From contig JACQTO010000220.1 in assembly GCA_016210745.1 (NCBI GenBank), positions 42,582 to 106,581 on the forward strand: a stretch of DNA of 64,000 bases, read 5' to 3'. Under the pieces are notes generated by a model. The model was not told the DNA's origin. It worked only from the letters and a program-made list of their open reading frames with translations, and made no database searches. The position numbers were made by a program, and so were the translations under genes. Of this stretch, positions 21-61,595 are shown piece after piece (the first letter of the stretch is position 1; the number at the start of each line of letters is the position of its first letter). The DNA is from Betaproteobacteria bacterium (GTDB taxonomy: Bacteria; Pseudomonadota; Gammaproteobacteria; Burkholderiales; SG8-39).

Positions 21-106
21 AAAATGGGGTCAGAGTAACATTTCCAAAACGCATTGAACCAGCGCGGTATCGCTTTGACGAAATGTTACTCTGACCCCAT
101 TTTCAC
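21..106. repeat. Palindromic element, TCAGAG family copy i (aaaatggggtcagagtaacattt...aaatgttactctgacccc atttt)
   Basis: Inverted repeat read directly; near-identical to 56309-56391 and related to 47115-47201. Confidence 0.9.
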
Positions 107-47071: not shown

Positions 47072-47114
47072 GACGAGGTTGGGTTTGCCGTTTATCGATC
47101 TCCCCTTTTAATGG
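47072..47114 (+). repeat. CHE copy 10, truncated (arm A and start of left stem only)
   Basis: gaggttgggtttgccgtttatcgatctcccctttta, then the TCAGAG element; no arm B. Confidence 0.8.
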
Positions 47115-47201
47115 TTAATTGGGGTCAGAGTAACTTTTTCACCCTGCGCATCACAGATCGACACGCGGTAACTCAGAAAAAGTTACTCTGACCCCAATTA
47201 A
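47115..47201. repeat. TCAGAG palindromic element copy ii
   Basis: ttaattggggtcagagtaactttttc...gaaaaagttactctgaccccaattaa. Confidence 0.9.
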
Positions 47202-56245: not shown

Positions 56246-56447
56246 CGGACGAGCCGGAACCAGGGAAGCTGGTTTTGCCGTTTATCAACCGCCCCCTTTT
56301 CGTGCAGCAAAATGGGGTCAGAGTAACATTTCCCAAACGCATCAAGCCAACTCGGTATCGCTTTGATGAAATGTTACTCTGACCCCATTTTGGGGCGACG
56401 AATTTCGAAACCAAATCGCCATATCTGTCAACAGTAAACACTTGTCA
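56246..56447 (+). repeat. CHE copy 11, interrupted by a TCAGAG element
   Basis: Arm A and left stem up to 56308; arm B resumes at 56392 (ggggcgacgaatttcgaaaccaaat). Confidence 0.85.
56309..56391. repeat. TCAGAG palindromic element copy iii, nested in CHE copy 11
   Basis: aaaatggggtcagagtaacattt...aaatgttactctgaccccatttt. Confidence 0.92.
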
Positions 56448-56448
56448 A

Positions 56449-56596
56449 GCCTAAGCCGGCATAGCCGCAACCGAAGAAGGTGGTTTTGCCATTTATCAAT
56501 CTCCTCCTTTTGTGCAGTTGCTCGCAACTGCGCAAAAAGGAGGAGACGAATTAGAAGCCAATTCTTCGCCAAATTTGCCAACAGTTACCTCTTAAG
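56449..56596 (+). repeat. CHE copy 12; hairpin 56500-56545
   Basis: tctcctccttttgtgcagttgc-tc-gcaactgcgcaaaaaggaggaga. Confidence 0.9.
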
Positions 56597-56607
56597 TGAC
56601 TAACGCC

Positions 56608-61435: not shown

Positions 61436-61595
61436 ACCTGACGAACCGGAACCAGTGATGCTGCTTTTTGCCGCAGTGATGCTGCTTTTTGCCGTTAACA
61501 GAATCTCCCCATTCTTGTGCAGTTGCTTGCAACTGCACAAGAATGGGGAGACGTATTTGAAAACCCAATTCTCGCTCCGCCCGTCAATACATGTC
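61436..61595 (+). repeat. CHE copy 14; hairpin 61504-61551; arm A with 21-nt tandem duplication
   Basis: tctccccattcttgtgcagttgc-tt-gcaactgcacaagaatggggaga; cagtgatgctgctttttgccg x2 at 61453-61494. Confidence 0.9.

Follow-up and report, generated by a model that had tools for sequence, protein, structure and literature searches.

A REPIN-like palindrome recurs inside the hairpin of a second repeat family and was probably moved there by a Y1/HUH transposase

CHE copy 11 is one of 14 copies of a dispersed element in the window (the whole stretch of 64,000 nucleotides that we analysed), and it carries a second palindrome within its own hairpin. This raises the question of how one hairpin-forming repeat came to lie inside another and which of the two was there first. 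The CHE is ~154 bp long with sharp ends (CCTAAGCCGGACGAGCC ... GTGACTAA), and intact copies in the window share a 22-bp stem (TCTCCCC-TTTT-CGTGCAG-TTGC/GCAA-CTGCACG-AAAA-GGGGAGA), with compensatory changes at 11 of the 22 pairs. We found ~18 copies in a 400-kb sample of stretches chosen for neither repeat and at least 150 strong copies genome-wide, and the element is plentiful in all four genus genomes searched. When the whole window was searched against Rfam at gathering scores, no curated RNA family was matched.

In copy 11, left-arm sequence continues up to ~56307 and the right arm (GGGGCGACGAATTTCG) restarts at 56392/56393. Compared to intact copies, its hairpin lacks TTGCnnGCAACTGCACGAAAA, the piece from TTGC to AAAA, and the palindrome stands in place of the apex and the inner right stem (Table 1). 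The preliminary description had reported a CHE that reads normally into an 83-nt palindrome and then resumes, with the apex and most of the right stem gone, and the sequence, the perfect palindrome arms and the alignment with intact copies bear this out. Within the window, GGGGTCAGAGTAA has 6 exact matches, which form three palindromes, and 7 matches at ≤2 mismatches compared to 0.67 expected in shuffles. The 83-mer itself has 100% identical copies on two further contigs.

Table 1. Features of the window locus and of the candidate transposase gene (window positions unless a contig is given)
Feature	Position	Strand	Basis
CHE copy 11, left arm and left half of hairpin stem (CCGCCCCCTTTTCGTGCAG)	56246..56307	+	nhmmer left-arm model match (L031 1438-1499); alignment with intact copies
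83-nt TCAGAG palindrome, REPIN-like dimer of GGGGTCAGAGTAAC	56309..56391	.	~75 genomic palindromes examined
Palindrome left inverted arm, 25 nt	56308..56332	+	
Palindrome right inverted arm, 25 nt, 100% complementary to left	56368..56392	-	
C|T dinucleotide at CHE-palindrome junction (ATTTTGC|TGCACG)	56306..56307	minus strand	
CHE copy 11, right stem stub (GGGCGACG) and right arm	56393..56447	+	right-arm model match L031 1584-1631
CHE copy 12, intact hairpin, immediately 3' of copy 11; paralogous vacant target	56450..56600	+	
CHE left half (to ...TCTCCCCTTTT), then palindrome of another subfamily (47117-47199); without right CHE half	47075..47199	+	
Third window palindrome, outside any CHE	21..103	+	
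Y1/HUH transposase gene, intact	C204:27685-28008		Pfam Y1_Tnp 2.2e-13

The same two CHE-palindrome junctions occur at ~8 loci of the genome, 5 of them complete on both sides, which supports the earlier proposal that one palindromic element targets or replaces another. The right junction, CCCCATTTTG-GGGG, is exact at C66, C137, C150:6297, C196 (the window locus), C220 and C231:6144 and has 2 mismatches at C268. The left junction (≤3 mismatches) is found at five of these loci and also at C231:20973, where the contig stops. From left arm to right arm, four complete composites have an interval of 79 and the window copy one of 78, and all complete composites have their two CHE halves in matching orientation. 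The bases left of the palindrome vary among composites (CAG, AGG, AGA, AAG, CGG), and in two of them (C137 and C231:6076) the core of the palindrome lies inverted with respect to the CHE. Other palindromes touch or truncate CHEs at different points (C92, C139:36482, C146, C112, C64, C113 and window 47117). Altogether, about 12 of the 75 palindromes lie in CHE hairpins compared to 1 to 2.4 expected for random intergenic insertion, where the expectation assumes 10-15% noncoding DNA and the tally treats composites as independent. A reversed-flank control for CHE contacts gave 0 matches, and a search of plasmids for the composite found no match.

What kind of element is the palindrome? Genome-wide, GGGGTCAGAGTAAC half-sites number 107 forward and 110 reverse, with 0 for the reversed control, and the ~75 palindromes that we examined from these 217 half-sites are inverted pairs of a short repeat that form hairpins, as REPINs do. 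Judged by its sequence, the palindrome is a REPIN-like dimer. TGGGGTCAGAGTAAC occurs 105+108 times in this genome, 9 times in the same-genus genome G003 and 0 times in G001 and G002, confining the expansion to this genome among the four genus members searched. The outermost bases are copy-specific yet symmetric within each copy up to position 7 beyond CCCC (65 of 74 at position 6 vs 24.5+-3.9 by chance; 54 of 74 at position 7 vs 32.2+-3.2) and at chance level further out. Because within-copy symmetry ends after position 7, we place the unit at ~87 nt. In a count of sequences, C|T spans positions 7|8 at 41 of 148 palindrome ends compared to 7.7 expected, and C|T is where the tested TnpA-REP enzymes cleave (PMC8266576). 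Target duplication did not exceed chance (6 flank pairs vs 5.7+-2.4), as expected for the Y1/HUH enzyme class. A GTAG (GT[AG]G) foot was sought 5' of the hairpin, and GTAG-CAAAAT was present in a minority of copies. GGGGTCAG fits the GGGGWSAS motif. Palindromes are also shared as orthologues between two species (G000 C16:2325 (L003) and G003 C104 (L304); C39:15105 and C166; C32 and C152), with near-unchanged arms while loops and coding flanks have diverged by ≥20%.

A transposase gene flanked by the repeat, which the preliminary description had proposed to look for, is present on contig C204. It encodes a protein of 232 aa with an HVH motif and a YIELNPVR tyrosine motif in its translation, and it matches NCBIfam REP_Tyr_transpos at 7.4e-21 and 74.6 bits, slightly below the 80-bit cut-off. 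The sole solved relative found was TnpA-REP, a weak match. Inverted copies of GGGGTCAGAG lie on both sides of the gene, as flanking repeats do in REPIN systems, and so does GGGGTCAG, with the GGGGWSAS motif of TIR repeats (PMC3733652, PMC6006769). At E up to 0.1, Y1_Tnp was the only domain detected; no C-terminal helix-turn-helix (subclass 2.1) was found, and one of remote similarity is possible. Neither CHE nor TCAGAG repeats were found in the neighbourhoods of the other two Y1 genes (C261 and C126). Genes that run into a palindrome (L061 on C204 and L046 on C130), the transposase gene included, end in KMGSE with a stop codon supplied by the palindrome.

To ask which element came first, we compared the composites with each other and with orthologous sites. 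CHE arms of composites share 81% (left) and 80% (right) identity, while random CHE sets reach 84% and 85%. Mean identity among the palindromes within composites is 98.2%, and three of them do not differ at all. Since the CHE arms have diverged by ~20% and the palindromes are 98% identical, the palindrome entered later, into CHEs that had already diverged. On these comparisons, CHEs came first and the palindrome afterwards as a statement about the families. Monophyly of the composite CHEs was considered and ruled out, as their arm identities are not above those of random CHEs. A vacant orthologous site, of the kind that the earlier proposal sought, was found for one composite, C66: on G003 C250, the orthologous CHE contains no palindrome and its hairpin is unbroken, although this CHE belongs to another subfamily. 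At the window locus and at C137, G003 lacks both elements. The relative age that had been claimed from the window locus therefore holds at family level, and for the window site itself the order is inferred from the family, since G003 lacks both elements there.

Other orthologous sites gave partial views. The search at C231:6076 returned only partial matches, and that at C130, a palindrome between two genes, one-sided ones. One-sided palindrome-CHE contacts with deletions were seen at C139:36482 compared to G003 C143 and at C112:7611 compared to G003 C217. At G000 C139:76309 and C41:12450, a palindrome occupies the place of a whole CHE in G003, either by full replacement or by independent insertions in the same intergenic gap. 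No CHE was found in the flanks of palindromes from G003, G004, G019 and G029. Separately, G003 C145 and G000 C183 are 99.7% identical over 2777 bp while other loci are at ~80%, which probably reflects contig cross-binning.

We favor, with a probability of roughly 0.6, a palindrome that is mobilized by a transposase, has a preferred landing site in CHE hairpins and replaces ~22 nt of them. The palindrome would be a non-autonomous, REPIN-like mobile unit of two inverted GGGGTCAGAGTAAC with ends at C|T. A Y1/HUH transposase of RAYT/TIRYT type would move it in trans from a gene located elsewhere in the genome, between copies of the same repeat; the C204 enzyme is the likely candidate. One near-uniform subfamily would have recently entered older, dispersed CHE hairpins several separate times at one fixed position beside the apex. 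The same ~22-nt piece (the loop, AAAA and the inner part of the right stem) would have been lost at each entry, and one of the two junctions would have a defined C|T. CHE hairpins may have been selected because they fold as single strands and contain a suitable C|T, and each composite may represent a separate event. Set against this reading, C|T is absent exactly at the boundary in 3 of 6 left junctions, and a loss of ~22 nt is unlike simple IS200/IS605 insertion, which is precise and without target loss.

Since the composites all belong to one near-identical palindrome subfamily, a single origin followed by copying has to be weighed. In this main rival account, one composite CHE with the palindrome and a GGGGG stub in its hairpin would have arisen once. 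Its central cassette would then have spread to other CHEs, with the arms supplying homology on both sides for gene conversion or recombination. Identical junctions and interval, near-identical composite palindromes and a near-constant right stub that mismatches the recipients' left stems all fit such copying. On the other hand, the arms right beside the palindrome differ, and conversion tracts would have to stop at the junction every time. Composite arms do not cluster, the core is inverted in two composites, and the palindrome variant common to C150:6301 and C231:6076 is found at C92:4955 as well, where the junction differs. We consider this copying somewhat unlikely, although independent transposition and gene conversion among CHEs are incompletely separated, and to that extent the earlier word "targeting" is only partly upheld. 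The stub bears on both. GGGGG is near-constant across composites while left stems vary, and left-stem and right-stub runs agree in no more than 1 of the 5 composites, whereas they do so in 51 of 57 intact hairpins. This difference (p about 0.002) suggests that the stub moved together with the palindrome. Given this mismatch, the piece that was exchanged may extend as far as a second C|T within the CHE stem, but the mismatch could equally stem from copying of a composite cassette among CHEs or from decay of left stubs after insertion. A doubtful, more specific possibility is that CHE hairpins serve as surrogate transposase substrates that are cut at two C|T, with the intervening piece swapped for the palindrome in a hairpin-for-hairpin cassette exchange between repeat families. 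Such an exchange would fit both the constant stub and the composite minus strand, GTC|TCCCCCAAAAT...ATTTTGC|TGCACG.

Both repeats are strong hairpins with AAAA-GGGG / CCCC-TTTT tracts in common, and several one-sided contacts carry deletions (C139:36482 and C112:7611), as might arise if a replisome stalled in the CHE hairpin, copied a palindrome elsewhere and rejoined at GGGG. Such transposase-free template switching predicts scattered breakpoints, while the main class has fixed ones, and it leaves unexplained both the C|T at unit ends and the ~75 palindromes dispersed around one transposase gene; we regard it as improbable. Mis-assembly of the draft genome at repeats would fit the several contigs that stop within palindromes (C220, C231, C268/C150). 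However, the flanking genes are collinear in G003 at the window locus (an ankyrin-repeat gene and an mscS-like gene), C66 and C137, and the orientation of the CHE halves is matched in every complete composite. This explanation, which the preliminary description had named as a possible refutation, is therefore scarcely credible.

Compared to known systems, the palindrome most resembles REPINs and TIR repeats. In the available part of the report on REPINs and RAYTs (Bertels and Rainey 2011, PMC3116915), these share with our palindrome the inverted short-repeat doublet, a ~87-nt unit, conserved arms around a variable loop, high copy number, intergenic location, a repeat-flanked transposase gene and no visible target duplication. 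They differ in that the seed here is GGGGTCAGAGTAAC and a GTAG-tagged REP foot is not consistently present. In that part of the report we also found no case of repeated landing in a different repeat family accompanied by removal of a constant segment. TIR repeats of TIRYTs (Di Nocera 2013, PMC3733652; subclass 2.1, Quentin 2018, PMC6006769) likewise have GGGGWSAS, inverted copies flanking a Y1 gene and dispersed dimers. Unlike subclass 2.1, no C-terminal helix-turn-helix was detected in the C204 protein, and the published TIR families are moderately abundant while here there are about 75 palindromes. REP-type dimers nested in palindromic targets have been described in A. variabilis (GTAG-15), T. 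roseum (GTAG-23) and H. neapolitanus (CGTC-1) (PMC3733652). There, unoccupied targets were absent in 2 of 3 cases, whereas here we find dozens of vacant targets and a vacant orthologous site, and the target is a ~154-bp dispersed element whose hairpin is partly replaced. Insertion sequences that target REPs (IS1397, IS621, ISPpu9 and ISRm22; PMC1525189) also favor a fixed point in palindromic repeats, but they are autonomous, while the inserted element here is a small non-autonomous palindrome. What is new compared to the precedent of Di Nocera 2013 is that vacant targets are numerous, that the junctions are fixed, that a segment is replaced and that a vacant site is seen between species.

How REP/REPIN-type repeats spread is still called unresolved (PMC3116915, PMC8266576), and few well-defined landing sites are available. 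The composites offer a rare view of how transposase-dependent repeats may choose where to land. Near-identical palindromes at one position of a populous target family, together with vacant paralogues and a vacant orthologue, provide a defined target sequence for work on the transposase, and the nesting yields a relative age, with the CHE older and the palindrome younger.

The CHE family itself shows further variation. Some copies lack the hairpin precisely (TTTCTTCACCTATGC... or CTCTTACCTATAG..., at L198 15016 and L113 ~1700), which would fit a hairpin that forms a separable module, and runs of GGATTCAGGATTCAG or ATCCTGAATCCTAA abut the outer ends of many CHEs (contigs C137, C150, L102 and L104). 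In the window, the copy at 61437-61500 carries a ~21-26 nt tandem duplication in its left arm (GCAGTGATGCTGCTTTTTGCC).
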